35,145 nt of DNA from Herbidospora galbida (GTDB taxonomy: Bacteria > Actinomycetota > Actinomycetes > Streptosporangiales > Streptosporangiaceae): contig NZ_SZQA01000057.1 of the NCBI RefSeq assembly GCF_005233835.1, positions 1 to 35,145 of the forward strand, in the 5' to 3' direction. The position numbers were made by a program, and so were the translations under genes. The notes beneath the pieces were generated by a model. The model was given only the letters and a program-made list of their open reading frames with translations. It was not told where the DNA came from and searched no databases. Of the stretch, positions 1 to 11,621 are shown one piece after another; the stretch's first letter is position 1, and each line of letters begins with the position of its first letter.

Positions 1-1641
1 GGTCGAACCGGCGATCGCGGCGTTGACCATCGGCTCGGCCTTGCGCAGCCCCCAGCGGCCCACCCGGGCCGCGGCGACCGGCGGCAGCGCGTTCGCGGCC
101 CGCTGCAGCGTCGGGGCCGTGGCGGCGTCGCCGAGCACGCGGGTCGTGAAGGTGGAGCCGCTGAGCGAGGAGAACAGGTGCTGGAACGGCCTGCGGTAGA
201 AGAACACCGCCAGCGTCAGCAGCGCCATGAACATGATCTGCATGCCCCACGGCAGCGGCGTCGAGATGATCAGGGCGTAGCCGTAGACCAGGACGCCGAG
301 CACCAGCGCGAGCACGGCCTGTCTCAGCAGCGTGCCGACGAGCATCTCCACCCAGCGCATCGCGATGATGCGCCCGGTGCCGGGATGGACGCCGATCAGC
401 AGGAAGATCGGCCCCATGATCAGCAACAGCAGGAAGCCGATCTTCAGCACCAGCAGCGACACCGCCACCAGGAAGATCAGCAACCCGGCGACCATGGCCG
501 CGATGAACGCCCCGATCGCCACGCCGAGACGGCTGGTCCAGTCTTTGCCCTGGAGCAGGTAGAACGACGGGCTGGTGCGCAGCGGTTCGGCGATCTGCTC
601 CTCCCACGCCCGCTGGTGGGCGTCGCCGCCCGGCGACTGCTGGGCGGCCTGCTCGGCCCGGGTGAGGGCCTGCAGTTGGAGGGCCTTGTCGCCGTACTGC
701 GTCACGATCGGCGAGGTCGCGTCGGCGGTGCCGAACATGCCCATCAGCCACGGCTTGCAGACCAGGGTCGACCAGAGCGCGTCGGCGTTCTGCGCCACAC
801 CCGGCGTGCCCGGCTGCCCGTAACCGCCGGCGTTGACCGACGGGGCGGCCGCCGGAGTGGCGGCGTCGGCCGCGGCCGGAGTGGTCGCGGGTGGCGGCAG
901 ACAGGACGCGCCGCCCGCGCCGGGCAGGCCCGCGAAGGCCGAATTGACGATCTCGGTGGTCTTGTCGGTGATGGTCTTGCCGACGCCGGTCAGGTCCTGG
1001 GGACGGCTGAAAAACCAGGTGGCGACCGTGACCGCGACGACCATCCAGATGACCGCCTCGGCGGTCGTGGTGGCGCGCTTGCGGAGCAGGCCGTACCAGG
1101 CCAGCCAGATCGCCGCGATGATCACTATCGGCCGCAGGAACGGCCAGTACATCGCGTCGGCCAGGTTGGTGACGATGTCGTCGACGACGTTCTTGATGGG
1201 CAGCAGCGGGCCCTCGGTCGCGGCGGCCTCGTACGTCGTGATGGTCAGCCGGTCGACCGCCTTGGCCCACGAGAAGATCGCGTTGGCCCAGGCGTTGCCG
1301 ATGACGGCCGCGACGTCGGAGCAGCCGAGCTCGTAGGTGTGCCAGAACTGGCCCGACATGCCGTAGGTCTCGTAGTTGGTCATCGGGGCCGTCACGGGCG
1401 CCTTGACCGACGTGCCGGCCCCTGCGCCGACCCCGGCGCCGGCGGCGGCGCCGGTGTCGCCCACATCGGGTGGCGGGGGTTTGACGAGGCCGTCGACGCC
1501 CGAGCCCACCACCTCCGGCGAGAGGGCGGCGGACATGTCACAGATCCCGTCGGCGTGTGCCACCGACGACCCGATGATCACTGGCGACGCCACGAAGAAC
1601 GTGACGAACACCAGCATGAGCAGGGCGACCCTGCGTTTCAC
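1..1641 (-). CDS. TrbL/VirB6-like polytopic membrane protein of a type IV secretion-like system (partial, C-terminus outside window)
   Basis: The minus-strand frame is open from a GTG at 1641 to the left edge (547 codons, no stop). Residues 1-30 form a signal peptide or signal anchor (KRR, then a hydrophobic stretch ending SSVAHA). An extracytoplasmic segment with FWHTYELGC follows, then two transmembrane helices near residues 175-225, a periplasmic loop with Ala/Pro-rich sequence, and a cluster of about four helices in the last third (LLIFLVAVSLLVLKIGF, FLLLIMGPIFLLIGV and two more). This layout fits TrbL/VirB6 channel proteins; several features recall the actinobacterial SCO6881-type family, but that is from memory. 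The start overlaps the stop of the VirB4-like gene as GTGA (1638-1641), so translation is probably coupled. Likely role: inner-membrane channel component. The family call is inferred from topology and neighbours. Confidence 0.75.
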   Translation of the reverse strand, partial: MKRRVALLMLVFVTFFVASPVIIGSSVAHADGICDMSAALSPEVVGSGVDGLVKPPPPDVGDTGAAAGAGVGAGAGTSVKAPVTAPMTNYETYGMSGQFWHTYELGCSDVAAVIGNAWANAIFSWAKAVDRLTITTYEAAATEGPLLPIKNVVDDIVTNLADAMYWPFLRPIVIIAAIWLAWYGLLRKRATTTAEAVIWMVVAVTVATWFFSRPQDLTGVGKTITDKTTEIVNSAFAGLPGAGGASCLPPPATTPAAADAATPAAAPSVNAGGYGQPGTPGVAQNADALWSTLVCKPWLMGMFGTADATSPIVTQYGDKALQLQALTRAEQAAQQSPGGDAHQRAWEEQIAEPLRTSPSFYLLQGKDWTSRLGVAIGAFIAAMVAGLLIFLVAVSLLVLKIGFLLLLIMGPIFLLIGVHPGTGRIIAMRWVEMLVGTLLRQAVLALVLGVLVYGYALIISTPLPWGMQIMFMALLTLAVFFYRRPFQHLFSSLSGSTFTTRVLGDAATAPTLQRAANALPPVAAARVGRWGLRKAEPMVNAAIAGST

Positions 1642-4112
1642 GAGCGCACCTCCCGCGCGACCCCCGAACGACCCGAACCCACCTTGTCCTGCTCGACCTC
1701 ATCCGGCTTGGCGTGCGTCGGATTGGTATCGAGCCAGCGCAGCAGCTCCTCGGAGATCAGGTCGACGCCGATCCGGCCCGCCCGACCGTCGAGGTCGCGG
1801 AAGACGCACTCGCCGTTGCGCAGCGAGCGCAGCACGCCCTTGTGTTCCTCGTTCGGATCGACTCCCAGGAGCTCCAGTACGTGCTCCACCTCGACCCGTT
1901 CGGTCGAGCGGAAGGCGAACACCGAGGAAAGGCAGTTGGTCACCTGCTCGTTCAGCAGGTCACCCGCGTTCTGGGACACCAGCACGAGTGCGGTGTTGCG
2001 CGACCGTCCCATGCGGGACACCTCGGGCACCAGCTTGGCGCCCTCGGGCGTGGACGTGATGGCCCACGCCTCGTCGAGGAAGATCGCTTTGGGGGTACGT
2101 CTGTCGAGCCCGTTCATCAACCGCCGGGCGAACTGCGAGACCAGGTAGAGCAGGGCGACGGAGAGCCGCTGCTCGTACGAGTAGTCGTCGCGCCCGGTCG
2201 CCGCGTCGGGCAGCGTGAGGCCGCCGAGGGTGAACACGGTGGTCCATCCCTCGGTGTCGATCTGGTCGCCGCCGGAGGGGTCGAAGCAGAGCCGGGCAAG
2301 GTGCATTTCGGACATCGACCGCAGCACTGCGCCCAGGTTCTTCGACGCGGCGTCCTCCGACCGGTCGAGGTGGTCGATGACCTTCCCGAGCGAGGGGTCG
2401 GGCTCGTTGGCGACGGCCGCGACGGCCTGCACCATGGCCGACTCGCGCTCCTCCGACATGCGCGGCAGCAGCAGCCGCAGCGTCTCGGTGGCCATCGTCT
2501 TCTTCGCGGCCAGGTCGTCGCCGAACGAGAACGGGTCGAGCAGCCCCGGCGCGGCCGACCCGAGGGGGATCGTGCGGGCCTGCCGTCCGCGCCTGCGCAG
2601 CAGCTGCACCAGCGACTCGGCGTCGCCCTTCGGGTCGATGACCGCGACGGTGACGCCGCGCAGCGCCATCTGGTAGATGAGCAGCAGCGCCAACGTGGTC
2701 TTGCCGCCGCCGGGCTCGCCGGTGATCGCGATGGCCGTCGGCCGGTTCTTGGTCGCCGCCACGAGCGGGTCGAAGTGGACGATGGAGCGTGCCCGCCCGA
2801 GCGTCTCCCCGATGTAGGGCCCCAGCCAGCCGGCCTCGTCGGCCCGGTCGCCCAGGTCGACGGTGGCGGTCGCCATGCCGCCCGCGATGGTCCGCAGCGG
2901 CTGCCGCTGCGCGTAGGCGTTCACCCTGACCTTCTCGCCCGGCAGCGCCTCGCAGAACAGCGAGAACTGGTCGCCGGTCGAGTTGACGACGTCGATGCCC
3001 ATGTCGCGGTAGTGCTCGATGACCGCCTCGACCCGCTGGACGCACATCTCCTCGGTCGGCGCGCTCACGCTCATGCGGTGCCAGCCGTAGACGAACGGCA
3101 GGCGTTCCTTCGTGATGCCGTGTTCGAGCATGCGGGCGGCGTCGATCTGCTCGGCCAGCGCCAGCGGCGCCTCGGCGCCCGCCTCGCGGATGTGGATGTC
3201 CATGTCGCGCGCGTGGGCCAGCTTCCTGGCGACGTCTCTGGAGGCGCGTACGGGAGAGATGAGCCGCATCCGGGAGGAGATCTCGACCGGGAACGGGAGC
3301 TGGTCGCCGAAGTGCATCCAGGGCTCGCCGTCGGGGAACGGCATCAGGTCGGGGAACCGGGCGAACGACAGGTGGGCGACGTAGGAGTCACCGGCGGGCT
3401 GCTCGATCCGGAGCAGCGACCTGCCGTTGTGGATCTGCCCCTCGACGAGGGCCTCGATCTCGCCCCGCCCCCACTTGCGCCGCTTCGACGCCGACGCCGG
3501 CGGGTCGCCGAGCGAGCCGGTCGCGGCGTGCTGGAACAGCCAGGCGACCTCGACGGACGTGGCGTGCCGCGCGTAGAGCGAACCGGAGGCGAGCGCGCGG
3601 CCGAGCCGCTCGGCCGCGTCGGTCCACCTGGCGACCTCCTTCTCCGGCACGTGGTCGTCGTCGAGCCCCAGGTTCTTCTCGGTCTTCTGGTAGAAGCCGA
3701 ACAGCTGCGCGAGCACGCCCTCGCCGAGCTGCGCGCCGCGCGGCCCGAGCCGGACTCCGAGGTAGACCTCCTTGGACCAGAAGTCCTTGGCCCAGACGTG
3801 GCGGTACATCTCTTCGAGGTAGTCGCGCCAGCCCGGCCCCTCGTCGGAGGTGGCGTTGAGCGCCATCGCCCACTCGGCCGCCGGGTAGGTGCGGTGGGCC
3901 ACCCGCAGGTGCACCTCGGCGTCGGGCATCCGGATCGCGGCCAGCGCGATCGTGATGTTGTTGGCGAGCGCCTCGCGCTCCTCTGGCGTGATGAACTCGT
4001 AGCTGACCGTGGGCAACCGGAAGTAGGCCCAGGCAGCGGAGTCGGTGAGGAGGATCCGGTCGTCGAAGTACCGGACCGCCAGACGACTGCGCGCCCGCGA
4101 CGCCCTAGCCAA
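1638..4112 (-). CDS. VirB4/TraC-family conjugative transfer ATPase
   Basis: 824 residues, the usual size for VirB4-like ATPases that energise type IV secretion and conjugation at the inner membrane. The C-terminal half is a RecA/HerA-like ATPase. It has Walker A GEPGGGKTT at about 465-473, a conserved VIDPKGDAES strand at about 491-500, Walker B AIFLDEAW at about 676-683, and a VSQN sensor-like motif at about 712-715. The N-terminal half (1-440) is the VirB4 N-terminal domain. Translation starts at TTG 4112; GGGGAG lies 7-8 nt upstream and no better ATG or GTG is nearby. The start overlaps the upstream fusion gene by 8 bp, and the stop overlaps the downstream TrbL-like start by 4 bp. The catalytic motifs look intact, so this is probably the active motor of the operon. 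Confidence 0.92.
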   Translation of the reverse strand: MARASRARSRLAVRYFDDRILLTDSAAWAYFRLPTVSYEFITPEEREALANNITIALAAIRMPDAEVHLRVAHRTYPAAEWAMALNATSDEGPGWRDYLEEMYRHVWAKDFWSKEVYLGVRLGPRGAQLGEGVLAQLFGFYQKTEKNLGLDDDHVPEKEVARWTDAAERLGRALASGSLYARHATSVEVAWLFQHAATGSLGDPPASASKRRKWGRGEIEALVEGQIHNGRSLLRIEQPAGDSYVAHLSFARFPDLMPFPDGEPWMHFGDQLPFPVEISSRMRLISPVRASRDVARKLAHARDMDIHIREAGAEAPLALAEQIDAARMLEHGITKERLPFVYGWHRMSVSAPTEEMCVQRVEAVIEHYRDMGIDVVNSTGDQFSLFCEALPGEKVRVNAYAQRQPLRTIAGGMATATVDLGDRADEAGWLGPYIGETLGRARSIVHFDPLVAATKNRPTAIAITGEPGGGKTTLALLLIYQMALRGVTVAVIDPKGDAESLVQLLRRRGRQARTIPLGSAAPGLLDPFSFGDDLAAKKTMATETLRLLLPRMSEERESAMVQAVAAVANEPDPSLGKVIDHLDRSEDAASKNLGAVLRSMSEMHLARLCFDPSGGDQIDTEGWTTVFTLGGLTLPDAATGRDDYSYEQRLSVALLYLVSQFARRLMNGLDRRTPKAIFLDEAWAITSTPEGAKLVPEVSRMGRSRNTALVLVSQNAGDLLNEQVTNCLSSVFAFRSTERVEVEHVLELLGVDPNEEHKGVLRSLRNGECVFRDLDGRAGRIGVDLISEELLRWLDTNPTHAKPDEVEQDKVGSGRSGVAREVRS

Positions 4113-6801
4113 CGAAGCTCTCCCCTCTCGCCGTGGTCAATCCGCTCGCGACAACCCCGGCAAGGGCAACGTACGCCCTGCGGCCGCCGCTGCGAAGGTC
4201 ATTGAGGTCGACTTGTCCTGGTTCGGCCAGCTCGTCTTCCCACGGGACCCTCACGATCGCCCTGCACCTTCCGCGTGCGACCGTCTCGGCCCGCTCGACA
4301 TCGGCCATGCTCCTTCGCGACACGCCGTTGATGACCACGACGGCCCTGCGCCGGAGGTCCGCGCAACCGTGCCCGTCGAGCCAGTCGTAGGTCATCGCGA
4401 CCGAGTCGGGGGCGTCGGCGCTGGCCGGGGCGACCAGCACGAGCTGGTCGGCGTAGGGCAGCAGCCGCGCGGCGAGCGCGGCGGCCGGGTCCATGAGGAT
4501 GATCCGGTACTGCTGGTCGAGCAGCCGCATCGCGCGGGCAATGCGCTGGTCAGAGAACCAGCCACGGTCGCCGATGCGCTGCTCGGCACCGGGGTCGACG
4601 TCGGCGGCGAGCACGTCGAGCCCGGAGTCGGTCCGGGTCGTGTAGTCGCGCACACGGGTCCCGACGCTGTCGACCGCCGTCAGGAACGAGCTGAGCGTCT
4701 CGGGCGTCTCGGGGCTGATCCGCCCGGTGAGCCCGTCGCCCCCGGAGTTGGCGTCGACCGCGACGACCCCGTCCTCCCGGAGCCGCGCGAGGGAGTGCCC
4801 GAGGAGCAGCGTGGTCGTGGTCTGCCCTGCCCCGCCCGTGCAGCCCAGCACGACGATGCGCCGGCTGCCGTTGATGGTCGTCCGGGCGCGGTCTTCGTCG
4901 TTGTCGCCGTCGGACCCCGCGACGACCTGCGACACCCGCCGCCACGTGGCCTCCGACCCCCGCTCGGCCGGCACGAACGGCGCCGGCGGCTGCCCCTTGC
5001 GCAACCGCTCCTTCTGCCAGTCGACCGCGGGCGCGGGCGCCTCCGGCTCGACGGCCGAGTCGGCGGAAGCCGCCAGCCTCCGCAACCTCCGCAACGCGTC
5101 GGGCCGTATCGGCGGCGAGGAGATCTCCTCAGCGGCGGGACTCTCGGCGGCGACCTCACGATCAGGCTCGGCCTGCCGGGGCTCGACGACCGGCTCAGGC
5201 TCCACCCGAGCGGGCGGCACGGCAACCTCGGGCTCAGCCGCGGCATGCCTGCCCACCCGGCCCGACGCCGGCTCTTCCTTGGCGGCCTGACTCGCGGCAT
5301 GCCGGGCTACCCGCGCCGACTCAGCCGGGGTCTCGTCCTGTACGGACTGGGCCACGCCCGACTCTTCGTCCGGGCCCCCCTCACGATCCGACCCGGCCTT
5401 GGCCACCGGCGACCACGAGAACTGAGGAGACGCGGTCTCGGCAGCCGAGGGCGCGGGAACTTCGGCAGACGGCGTCGGCACACCGGCGCCCTGCGACCCG
5501 GAACCCGCAGGAGCGTGGGCGGGCACATCAGGAGCTTCCGACCGGCTCACCGGAACCGGGCGCGTGGGCGCATCGGCACCCTGCGATCCGCTCGCCGGGT
5601 GCGGGGACACACCGGGCACCTCAGGCTGGGCCTGGCGGTCGGAAACCGGCCACACGGGCACGTCGGAGACCTGCGGCGAGCGCGCCTCCGACCCCGCCCG
5701 AGCGACATTCGGCCTGGTGGAAGCCGGGCGCGCCGGCGCACCGGGCGTCTCGGACCGGCTCGGACCTTCGGGCACGTCGGGAGCCTGTGGCCTGGGGGTC
5801 GACGGCGCACTGGGCGTCTCGGACCGGGCCGGGGCTTCGGCCGCCGTGCGCGCGGGCGCGTCGGAAGGCCGGGGGCCGGGCTCCGCAGGCGTGGGCACGC
5901 CGGCGTCTTCCGGCCGGGCCGGACTGCCCGGGACCAGGCGCATGGGCACGGTGGGACCCTGCGGGCGAGGCTCGTTCGCCTCGCGCGCCGGCCTCTCGGG
6001 CCGCCGGATCGGGCGCGGAGTCGGTTCGCTCTCCGCGTGTGCGGGCGGCTCGGGGGCTTCGGGGGTCTTGGGCCTGTCGGACGGGTGGGCGAGGAAGGCC
6101 GGTCGGAGCGGGTTGGCGGCGAGGGGGCGGGAGCGGTCCTTGGCCGGGTCGGCGGGCTCCCCCGGGCGGATCAGGCGTGGGGGCTGGCCGAAGGTCGCGG
6201 GGCGGCGGCCCTCCGGGAGGGCCGTCTGCTTGTCGTCCGGGTGGCCGATCAACCGGCGGGCGGGTTCGGGGGACGCGTGGGCCGTCGTCGTGGTGGTCAG
6301 CGGGGGCTTCACGCGTACCGGGATCTCCTCGACCACCGGCGCGGCGGCCGCGGCGGCGGCGGCCACGGCGGGGCGGACGGTCGCGCGCTGGGGTTCCGGA
6401 GCGCGCTTGGGCTTCTTGACCCGCACGCGCTCGGTGCCGGCCCGCCAGACCTTGGCCTGGAAGTCGATCACGTCGGGCTCGCCCGAGGGCGCGAGGCGGC
6501 ACCACGTCTTGGGCTCGGAGAAGTAGCGGGTCTGCGACTGGAGGAGTTCGGTCAGTCGCTTGCCCTCGATCACGGGACGAGTCGACAGCCATGTAACGAT
6601 CCCGGGCGGAACCAGATAGATCACATGCCAGGGCGCGTCGAAGGGCAAACCGACCACTTGGAGGAGGACCCACCAGAAGGCGGAGACGCCGACGAAGACA
6701 CCGATCCAGACGATGGGCAACGGCATGGGCAGCCGGAGATCATAAAGCTTGTAAAGCCGCTTCTCAATTCGCCAGATATTGGTGTATGTAGGCAGATCCA
6801 C
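4105..6801 (-). CDS. TcpE-like membrane domain fused by a long disordered linker to a degenerate MinD/ParA-like ATPase
   Basis: 898 residues in three parts. Residues 1-120 resemble TcpE/Tn916-Orf16 conjugation proteins: YTNIWRIEKRLYKLYDLRLP, two helices at about 28-50 and 56-73, then GKRLTELLQSQTRYF and EPKTW. Residues 125-645 are Pro/Ala/Ser/Glu-rich linker with repeated SETPxAP- and GSQGA-type units. Residues 647-898 form a MinD/SIMIBI-type fold: strand RRIVVLG, P-loop CTGGAGQTTTT (654-664), VVAVDANSGGDG, IILMDP at about 767-772, and VVVING. Residue 660, the Walker A lysine position, is Gln (CAG codon at 4822-4824), and the MinD signature lysine position is Thr. The GTG start has AGGAGG 6 nt upstream. 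It may act as a membrane scaffold or regulatory nucleotide sensor. EspI-like proteins of ESX systems have a related linker plus MinD plan, but this is only an analogy. Confidence 0.85.
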   Translation of the reverse strand: MDLPTYTNIWRIEKRLYKLYDLRLPMPLPIVWIGVFVGVSAFWWVLLQVVGLPFDAPWHVIYLVPPGIVTWLSTRPVIEGKRLTELLQSQTRYFSEPKTWCRLAPSGEPDVIDFQAKVWRAGTERVRVKKPKRAPEPQRATVRPAVAAAAAAAAPVVEEIPVRVKPPLTTTTTAHASPEPARRLIGHPDDKQTALPEGRRPATFGQPPRLIRPGEPADPAKDRSRPLAANPLRPAFLAHPSDRPKTPEAPEPPAHAESEPTPRPIRRPERPAREANEPRPQGPTVPMRLVPGSPARPEDAGVPTPAEPGPRPSDAPARTAAEAPARSETPSAPSTPRPQAPDVPEGPSRSETPGAPARPASTRPNVARAGSEARSPQVSDVPVWPVSDRQAQPEVPGVSPHPASGSQGADAPTRPVPVSRSEAPDVPAHAPAGSGSQGAGVPTPSAEVPAPSAAETASPQFSWSPVAKAGSDREGGPDEESGVAQSVQDETPAESARVARHAASQAAKEEPASGRVGRHAAAEPEVAVPPARVEPEPVVEPRQAEPDREVAAESPAAEEISSPPIRPDALRRLRRLAASADSAVEPEAPAPAVDWQKERLRKGQPPAPFVPAERGSEATWRRVSQVVAGSDGDNDEDRARTTINGSRRIVVLGCTGGAGQTTTTLLLGHSLARLREDGVVAVDANSGGDGLTGRISPETPETLSSFLTAVDSVGTRVRDYTTRTDSGLDVLAADVDPGAEQRIGDRGWFSDQRIARAMRLLDQQYRIILMDPAAALAARLLPYADQLVLVAPASADAPDSVAMTYDWLDGHGCADLRRRAVVVINGVSRRSMADVERAETVARGRCRAIVRVPWEDELAEPGQVDLNDLRSGGRRAYVALAGVVASGLTTARGESFVG
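5250..6420 (-). repeat. Low-complexity Pro/Ala/Ser/Glu linker with degenerate internal repeats
   Basis: This is the coding sequence of the linker in the TcpE/MinD-like fusion. Short units recur without exact periodicity: SETPSAP / SETPGAP, GSQGADAPTRP / GSQGAGVPTPS, APDVPEG / APDVPAH, and RVARHAA / RVGRHAA. An alanine tract of about 10 residues lies near 6350-6370. The reading frame stays open and GC-rich throughout, so this looks like a real disordered spacer and not a frame artefact. Confidence 0.7.
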
Positions 6802-6832
6802 CCGAATCCTCCTCTCCGCAACGTGCCAAAGG

Positions 6833-7123
6833 TCACTGGATGCCGAGCGCCCCCGCGATCGCCTTGGCCGTCACCTCGATGATGTTCGGCACATAGAAGA
6901 TCACACCGATGGCGATCGCCAGGATGATGAACTGGACGAACCGCGTGATCTCCCTGGTGAAGAGGAAGAACAGCGCCACGACCGACACGATCACCAAGAA
7001 CAACGGCGCGAAGAATCGGCGCAGGAACTCGGCCAGGCCTTCGGTGTTGAGCCCGGTGCCCGACCCCGGCGCGGGGGACGGCGCGAGCGCGGTCACGGTC
7101 TCGACAATCGTTTGGAGAATCAA
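6833..7123 (-). CDS. Small two-helix membrane protein of the transfer operon (TcpD/VirB2-like position)
   Basis: 96 residues with a hydrophilic Pro/Gly-containing N-terminus and two hydrophobic helices: about 38-54 (FAPLFLVIVSVVALFFL) and 63-80 (VQFIILAIAIGVIFYV). The start is TTG 7123, preceded by GGGAGGG at 6 nt; no ATG is available upstream in frame. It lies between the TcpC-like and TcpE-like genes. In Tn916- and pCW3-type elements this slot holds a small membrane protein (TcpD-like), and in other type IV systems small two-helix proteins are pilin or channel subunits (VirB2/VirB3). The size, topology and context are visible; the family assignment is inferred. Confidence 0.8.
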   Translation of the reverse strand: MILQTIVETVTALAPSPAPGSGTGLNTEGLAEFLRRFFAPLFLVIVSVVALFFLFTREITRFVQFIILAIAIGVIFYVPNIIEVTAKAIAGALGIQ

Positions 7124-7173: not shown

Positions 7174-8178
7174 CTACCCCACGGACCGGCTCGCGCCCTG
7201 GACCTGCCGGACGAGCCACTTGTCGCCCTGCTTCTCCATCGTGAGCAGGTAGGCCTGCTCCAGCAGCGCGGGCTGCGCGGCCGGGTCGGCCGGATCGGCG
7301 GTCGGCACCGCGGCGGCGTCGGCCGCCGTGATGGACCAGGTGACCGTCACGGTGACATCGCGGCCGGTCTCCCCCCCGAGCGGCGCGACCACGCTGTTGA
7401 GCTGGGCCAGGGTGAACTGACCGCCGAGACCCTCGATCGTCGCGCCGTCGGCCGCGTAGAGCTTCAGCTCGGCGGCGTTGCCGGAGGCGTAGGCCCGGAA
7501 GAAGCCTTCGAGCGTCTGACGCAGCTGGTCTTCGAGGTTGGCGTCGCGGTCGGGACCCGCGATGGCCGGCAGCCCGGCCGCGCCCCCGGAGGGCAGCAGG
7601 GCGGGCAGCCCGGACACGACGAACCGGCCGTCGGCCTGGAAGATCGGCACCGACAGCAGCCAGCGCCGCGCGCCCGACTGGAAACTGACTTGCACCCGCG
7701 CGTTGTTCGCGTCGGCGACCTCGATGGAATGGAATTGAATGGCGCCGGCCGCCATGCGCCCGGACCCATTCCAGCCGAATCGCCTTTCGACCCCGTCGGC
7801 GAGAAAATCGGTGAGCCGGGTGTCGCGCTGTTCTGGATTCGTTCCGTCGAAATTCAGATAAACGGCGGCGAACTGATTCGCGAACGCCGCTCCCTGCTGC
7901 ACCGGGAAACCGGAATCGGCCGGTGCGGACGGTGCGCCGGTGGCGCCCTGATTCGACGTGAAACGCTCGAACGGCGCCCTCACCCCGTTGACGACGATCA
8001 CGACGATGAGCGCCCAGAGCACGGCCCTGCCGGTCCAGACGAGCCAGCGGCCCCCGCCGCCGCTCCAGCCCCTGCGCCGCATCGGCTCCCGTTCAGGCAA
8101 CGGCGGATCCGTAGGAGGGTATGACTCTGGGTCGCCAGCGATCCGAGGATCCTGCTGGACGGTTGACCTGCGAGCCAT
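7174..8178 (-). CDS. TcpC-like conjugal transfer protein (VirB8-type, bitopic)
   Basis: 334 residues from ATG 8178. A GTG directly before it at 8181 is an alternative, but GGAGG is then only 1 nt away, so ATG fits better. The cytoplasmic Pro-rich N-terminus (1-44) is followed by one transmembrane helix (about 46-67, WTGRAVLWALIVVIVVNGV). Two extracytoplasmic alpha+beta domains of the NTF2-like/TcpC type follow, at about 90-200 (AAFANQFAAVYLNFD) and 215-330 (LEGFFRAYASGNAAELKLY, ending WLVRQVQGA). TcpC of pCW3 and Tn916 Orf13 are VirB8-like assembly factors of the transfer channel, and this match is good in order and topology. It is the first gene of the operon, so the promoter should lie in 8182-8492. 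Confidence 0.85.
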   Translation of the reverse strand: MARRSTVQQDPRIAGDPESYPPTDPPLPEREPMRRRGWSGGGGRWLVWTGRAVLWALIVVIVVNGVRAPFERFTSNQGATGAPSAPADSGFPVQQGAAFANQFAAVYLNFDGTNPEQRDTRLTDFLADGVERRFGWNGSGRMAAGAIQFHSIEVADANNARVQVSFQSGARRWLLSVPIFQADGRFVVSGLPALLPSGGAAGLPAIAGPDRDANLEDQLRQTLEGFFRAYASGNAAELKLYAADGATIEGLGGQFTLAQLNSVVAPLGGETGRDVTVTVTWSITAADAAAVPTADPADPAAQPALLEQAYLLTMEKQGDKWLVRQVQGASRSVG

Positions 8179-8181
8179 CAC

Positions 8182-10413: not shown

Positions 10414-11490
<1,077 letters not shown>

Positions 11491-11498
11491 GAAATTCG

Positions 11499-11504
11499 AG
11501 TCTA
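11499..11504 (-). promoter_or_regulatory. -10 element TAGACT of ychF, leaderless type
   Basis: TAGACT ends 8 nt before the GTG start. A TTGACG at 11530-11525 is a possible -35, but the 20-nt spacer is long. Confidence 0.5.
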
Positions 11505-11621
11505 TTGGAATCCGGTACGCCGCTCGTCAAACCCCGTCGTGGGCAAACTCTGGGTCGTGGCGGGGTATGCGGAGGGCGAGCCTCCCTCTTCTGCCGGGAA
11601 AAGCCTGGGATCATCCAGGAC

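Follow-up and report, generated by a model that had tools for sequence, protein, structure and literature searches.

A probable VirB3-type membrane subunit carrying a degenerate MinD-like domain in a type IV secretion operon of Streptosporangiales

The fusion gene and its operon

The window analysed in this study is a stretch of 35,145 nucleotides from Herbidospora galbida (contig NZ_SZQA01000057.1). It is a whole contig, G000:C70 in our survey, and the contig start cuts a type IV secretion system (T4SS) operon inside the VirB6 gene. The features of the operon are listed in Table 1.

Table 1. Features of the fusion gene and the neighbouring operon in the window
Feature	Position	Strand	Remarks
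VirB6/TrbL-type membrane protein	1..1641	minus	cut by contig end; part 178-1641 profile-scanned
VirB4/TcpF-type ATPase	1638..4112	minus	downstream of fusion; start as called overlaps fusion stop by 8 bases
Fusion gene, TcpE-linker-putative pseudo-MinD	4105..6801	minus	898 codons, GTG start, one open frame
MinD/ParA-fold domain	4108..4926	minus	C-terminal part of fusion; MinD/ParA fold recognised
Degenerate P-loop CTGGAGQT	4819..4842	minus	both lysines replaced
WRR-type segment	4921..4944	minus	residues 620-627, directly before MinD domain
Linker	4927..6465	minus	residues 113-625 (513 residues), Pro/Ala/Arg/Glu-rich, mostly predicted disordered
Basic motif ALRRLRRLAAS	5065..5097	minus	linker residues 569-579
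TcpE (probable VirB3) membrane domain	6466..6801	minus	residues 1-112; Pfam PF12648, alignment, model, hydropathy
Shine-Dalgarno AGGAGG	6808..6813	minus	six bases 5' of fusion GTG
96-aa hydrophobic protein, tcpD position	6833..7123	minus	upstream of fusion; no Pfam match
TcpC/VirB8-like protein	7174..8181	minus	upstream; PF12642, E 1.2e-15

The N-terminal domain of the fusion protein scored 75.2 bits in the Pfam profile search against PF12648, for which the gathering score is 29.9. As the protein has 898 residues, it is not a small stand-alone TcpE, and PF12648 was assigned as a domain and not as a whole-protein match. A low-confidence model (pLDDT 66) predicted helices at residues 3-21, 27-50, 58-62, 64-79, and 83-95 of the domain, and the hydropathy threshold was passed by residues 24-54 only, in a single peak. 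An antisense open reading frame of 945 aa on the plus strand was rejected as a shadow ORF because the domain matches and the conservation fall in the minus-strand frame.

The gene order is TpcC, the 96-aa protein, the fusion, VirB4, and TrbL/VirB6, followed in relatives by an NlpC/P60 protein with a transglycosylase-type match. TcpE proteins of PF12648 from pCW3, ICEBs1, and ICESt3 share the N-terminal domain of the fusion and its place directly before the VirB4 gene, and we take the order tcpC-D-E-F-H-G of pCW3 to be the same as the one found here. The VirB4 protein has a P-loop of its own, GEPGGGKTT, and its nearest NCBI model was TcpF (E 1e-74), though well under the cut-off of that model. 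A homologue of the 96-aa protein was found in 35 of the 38 other loci compared. The NlpC/P60 protein, which is the VirB1 function of the system, lies downstream in the scanned relatives G161, G346, G171, and G250; in the window genome such a gene would sit on another contig. Thus, the MPF_FA gene set (VirB8, TcpE, VirB4, VirB6, and VirB1) is present in tcp order, VirB1 being known from relatives only and unrecognised in genus g3. The VirB6 homologue was recognised in about 23 of the loci compared and the NlpC homologue in about 22, and genus g3 has different genes at both positions. Two extra genes also lie between the fusion and VirB4 in genus g3 (L035 7357-9425 in G377 and L036 10441-12487 in G223); those in L035 are PhyH-like and GmrSD_C-like.

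The operon is chromosomal in relatives, where its neighbours include ychF (G161 and G171), sdh (G161), and typA (G346 and G241). In the window, a minus-strand frame at 10417-11526 is conserved in 24 loci and apparently encodes the YchF GTPase, whose gene adjoins the operon in G161 and G171.

Distribution of the fusion and conservation of the linker

PF12648 was found above its cut-off in 40 of 394 genomes of the class. All 40 belong to the family of the window, of which 41 genomes were listed, and a single weak TcpE match occurred outside the family. The surveyed family appears, by inference, to be the Streptosporangiales of the named records described below. Among the 36 loci uncut by contig ends (35 fetched loci and the window), 35 carry both domains in a single frame, and their linkers span 382-1750 residues. 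Five of the 41 listed genomes were excluded from this set as cut: the TcpE frame stops at or near the contig end in G016, G110, G121, and G299, and only the MinD part is present, at a contig end, in G131. The sole uncut locus with TcpE and MinD in different frames is L044 6437-9871 (G171), which reflects either an error or a real frameshift. Among the best 80 of 269 named relatives, which share some genomes with the set of 36, the two domains share a frame in 70 loci, and the other 10 are truncated within the frame by a contig edge. The closest of these 80 copies are six from Herbidospora (94-99% in the TcpE domain), and they are followed by Acrocarpospora, Planomonospora, Microbispora, Nonomuraea, Streptosporangium, Actinomadura, and others.

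The initial annotation had proposed, from one sequence, that a TcpE domain and a MinD-like domain are joined by a long linker and that the single open frame reflects a real fusion. The profile search confirmed the domain plan on the minus strand, and the proposed fusion was borne out by a single frame in 35 of 36 and 70 of 70 uncut loci. The survey of domain architectures that it had called for showed that the fusion is conserved across one bacterial family, and that the two parts are not always separate genes.

Within a sample of 148 genomes, VirB4 was 77-90% identical in the ten other genomes of the family, and its best match outside the family was 32% identical. The identity within the family argues for a working machine.

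Two minor observations concern further TcpE-type sequences. In G250, a second tcp-type cluster (L067 6849-14340) occurs in addition to the fusion copy of that genome. It contains a stand-alone TcpE-like frame of 182 codons; its TcpE, TpcC, and TrbL matches are below the Pfam cut-offs, and the stretch read has no MinD match. G037, which also has the fusion, has a second TcpE match just above the cut-off with one internal TAG stop (L068, G037:C74:8604-8864).

A mobile, plasmid origin was considered and rejected. Among 25 listed of the 60 plasmid records matched, one has both domains, namely 'plasmid I' of Nonomuraea gerenzanensis, which at 11.85 Mb must be a chromosome (L175, NZ_LT559118.1; labelled plasmid in PLSDB, with 10 annotated features there). 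The other 24 match only from fusion residue 596 onward.

We also searched 11 genomes for conjugation functions. FtsK_SpoIIIE gave no match within 20 kb of the fusion as far as the contigs reach, the contig ends being nearer than 20 kb in G000 and G151. The relaxase families covered were Rep_trans, found in none of the 11 genomes, and TrwC, found in two on contigs other than that of the fusion. The TraG-D_C coupling domain was present somewhere in eight genomes and in none of the remaining three, and it lay within 20 kb of the fusion in one. The operon genes scanned gave no match to any relaxase or coupling family covered. From these results, an ordinary role in conjugation seems unlikely for the machine. 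The TraG-D_C match near the operon, the only one in the 11 genomes, belongs to a 636-codon frame about 17 kb from the fusion in G232 (L167 6497-8404); this match, the TraG-D_C domains elsewhere, and the two TrwC genomes count against a non-conjugative system.

The linker is mostly unconserved between loci apart from two elements. Of 105 linkers, 66 contain a single basic, helix-like motif of the RLRRL type, whose place varies from 85 to 579 residues ahead of the P-loop; in the other 39 it was not found. LRRLR was present in 55 of 85 non-redundant linkers as compared with 1 of 85 shuffled ones. The second element is a conserved island before the MinD domain, GWRR.A in 75 of the 85 linkers and TWRRVS in the window.

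The degenerate P-loop and related MinD proteins

The P-loop of the MinD/ParA superfamily is KGGxGK[ST]. In this study, we found that both lysine positions are changed, to T and Q, in all 98 distinct fused domains, giving C-T-G-G-A-G-Q-[T/S]; one domain has S for the second G. For comparison, 16 related domains not fused to TcpE were hand-picked from the stronger matches and are not a random draw; all 16 keep both lysines and the Asp of the NPD motif and have the P-loop KGGVGKT. The lysine motif KGGxGK[ST] is therefore found in 0 of 98 fused domains and 16 of 16 paralogues, and Gly replaces the NPD Asp in 98 of 98 fused domains. The switch-II region is also four residues shorter in the fused domains than in the paralogues in the alignment rows printed. 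The rest of the degenerate pocket is conserved: all 98 domains retain the Walker B Asp and the first A' Asp and have Thr or Ser at the Mg position. Within the degenerate loop, C, T, G, A, G, and Q do not vary across a 22-row alignment, which argues that the pocket is not decaying.

In a tree of 53 domains, a branch with 100/100 support separates the 37 fused domains from the rest. Long branches meet at the fused clade, so its position relative to particular paralogues is unsure. A search of 396 genomes of the phylum, a sample holding no other members of the family, with an exact DNA pattern for GCTGGAGQT returned one genome, that of the window; this excludes only exact copies of GCTGGAGQT in the other 395.

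As judged from its residues, the MinD-like tail looks unable to use ATP and is best described as a putative pseudo-ATPase. A ligand may still bind the tail, since the Walker B Asp, the A' Asp, and the Mg-position Thr/Ser are kept. Some MinD/ParA proteins that lack the first lysine are active, for example McdA. A curated family with a KGGVGR motif is found among the NCBI models (NF047398).

We then compared the tail with MinD proteins linked to ESX secretion. The best matches to the tail were the family's own copies (50-67% identity), followed by proteins across actinobacteria (36-43%). An EccB gene lies 4.5-5.1 kb from 3 of the 16 related-domain loci, all three in f18 genomes, presumed to be Streptomyces, and EccB gave no match within 20 kb of the other 13. 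The domains of the three ESX-linked loci are 38-39% identical to the fusion tail. The SCO5717 N-terminal model (NF041021) matched L070, the sole one of these three proteins scanned, with E 6.4e-24, and was not found in the fusion protein of the window in the NCBI model scan. In six family genomes searched for EccB, there was no match in G000, G161, G171, and G151, and G180 and G131 have one or more on contigs other than that of the fusion.

SCO5717-family ATPases, and by analogy EspI of ESX/T7SS, likewise have a long linker and a C-terminal MinD-type domain and lie beside a secretion system, and the fusion has this same plan of a MinD-type domain after a long disordered stretch. However, the SCO5717-family ATPases have an intact KGGVGKT and no TcpE domain, and they belong to T7SS and not T4SS; the likeness to EspI is one of analogy. 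The initial annotation had compared the whole plan to EspI and had taken the tail for an ATPase. The first idea survives in so far as the MinD part is related to ESX-linked proteins, which makes the EspI comparison a fair lead for that part, short of a shown orthology; the second is not supported, as none of the 98 distinct copies has an intact nucleotide motif. The layout resembles that of some ESX-linked proteins of the same phylum, in which the MinD domain is intact, and hints at a common control logic across two unrelated secretion systems.

Every one of 16 family genomes also had at least one further MinD-type match, and KGGVGKT was present in all seven such loci read (five genomes). The canonical MinD paralogue of the window genome is at G000:C46:17191-17967. 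The paralogues of G000 and G161 are surrounded by unrelated genes, at a distance from the T4SS operon. About 7 kb from the paralogue of the window genome there is an FtsK_SpoIIIE-type match (G000:C46:9903-10418).

Possible roles of the MinD-like tail

The TcpE domain is probably VirB3, a point on which the literature is divided. According to PMC12857230, TcpE is most likely the VirB3 of such systems, adjoining VirB4, and VirB3 homologues are of 10-15 kDa; the fusion has about 780 further residues ending in the pseudo-MinD. PMC12102498 states that VirB3 anchors VirB4 in the membrane, and it also describes MPF_FA systems without a distinguishable VirB3 homologue, which counts against equating TcpE with VirB3.

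With moderate confidence, we propose that a probable VirB3-type subunit of a fixed, probably non-conjugative MPF_FA/tcp T4SS of Streptosporangiales carries a tethered, nucleotide-independent docking module. The T4SS would be chromosomally fixed and domesticated, with TcpE as an inner-membrane subunit beside VirB4. Should TcpE cross the membrane twice, in line with the low-confidence model, both of its ends would be cytoplasmic, and the MinD-like domain would hang in the cytoplasm on a long flexible tether next to VirB4. The loss of the P-loop lysines makes the tail unlikely to cycle as a motor, and the conservation of an apparently inactive, tethered fold suggests a docking role. The tail may thus bind a partner as a docking arm and keep it close to VirB4, the energy being supplied by VirB4 and not by the tail. 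Candidate partners are a polar or septal marker, the canonical MinD paralogue, and a secreted substrate.

Related arrangements are known from other systems. VirC1 of Agrobacterium and gonococcal ParA are also ParA/MinD-type proteins serving T4SS; unlike the fusion, they are separate proteins acting with the relaxosome, and gonococcal ParA requires its own Walker A box (PMC8716806). VirB3 is likewise a fusion platform in the VirB3-VirB4 fusions of some conjugative systems, where the partner is the VirB4 ATPase (PMC12102498). Each part of the present protein was already known. No paper among the literature matches listed described the fusion or the chromosomal T4SS of the family, and a VirB3-type fusion of this kind, the uniform loss of two lysines, and family-wide T4SS fixation were absent from those matches; this is a weak indication of novelty, as most subscription journals lie outside the coverage.

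Type IV machines have mostly been studied on mobile DNA. The system described here seems to be a fixed part of the core genome throughout a family of filamentous actinobacteria from soil.

Other explanations for the tail were weighed against the docking module. The tail might still be a nucleotide-binding switch, in which Gln and other residues stand in for lysine and which senses nucleotide state to gate VirB4. The intact MinD/ParA fold, the Asp and Mg-position residues kept in all 98 copies, and the SCO5717 model in one of the 16 related domains are consistent with such a switch, as is the statement in PMC11302016 that EspI lowers ESX-1 secretion at low ATP. However, the same text names the P-loop lysine as the essential ATP-binding residue of EspI, and both lysines and the NPD Asp are gone in all 98 distinct copies. 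We regard the switch as unlikely, though worth weighing.

Alternatively, the tail could recruit a canonical KGGVGKT paralogue of the same cell and thereby make the machine a MinD cargo, either with its pseudo-domain as a half-dimer or by way of the basic RLRRL helix in the linker. A further MinD-type match is present in each of the 16 family genomes, the basic motif is far more frequent in the linkers than in shuffled sequence, and according to PMC10241942, binding of cargo proteins to such ATPases by a positively charged disordered N-terminus has been demonstrated or proposed. However, such paralogues are common in actinobacteria, those of G000 and G161 lie away from the operon, and more than a third of the linkers (39 of 105) have no recognised basic motif. 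Recruitment as such seems quite doubtful. A broader form of the idea, which we consider speculative and rather unlikely, is that a family-wide domesticated T4SS is the cargo of a positioning system, with the dead MinD half and the basic linker helix of VirB3 binding the live paralogue. If this were true, the binding would bring the machine to hyphal tips, septa, or spore chains; the tail would then be a positioning arm integral to a secretion machine, and the MinD proteins would include a class of pseudo-ATPases.

It is very unlikely that the locus is what remains of a decaying conjugative element whose ATPase has become a fossil. The lost lysines, and the lack of the searched relaxase and coupling families in or near the operon, G232 apart, would fit decay, but the pocket changes are uniform and not random, TcpE is near-universal in the family, and VirB4 remains highly similar in the ten other family genomes sampled. 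Finally, a frameshift or misassembly joining two genes, to which the frequent contig ends in the linker (10 of the best 80 of 269 relatives) and the split frames of G171 might point, is ruled out by 105 uncut single-frame copies in the two overlapping sets, some of them in single-contig genomes.
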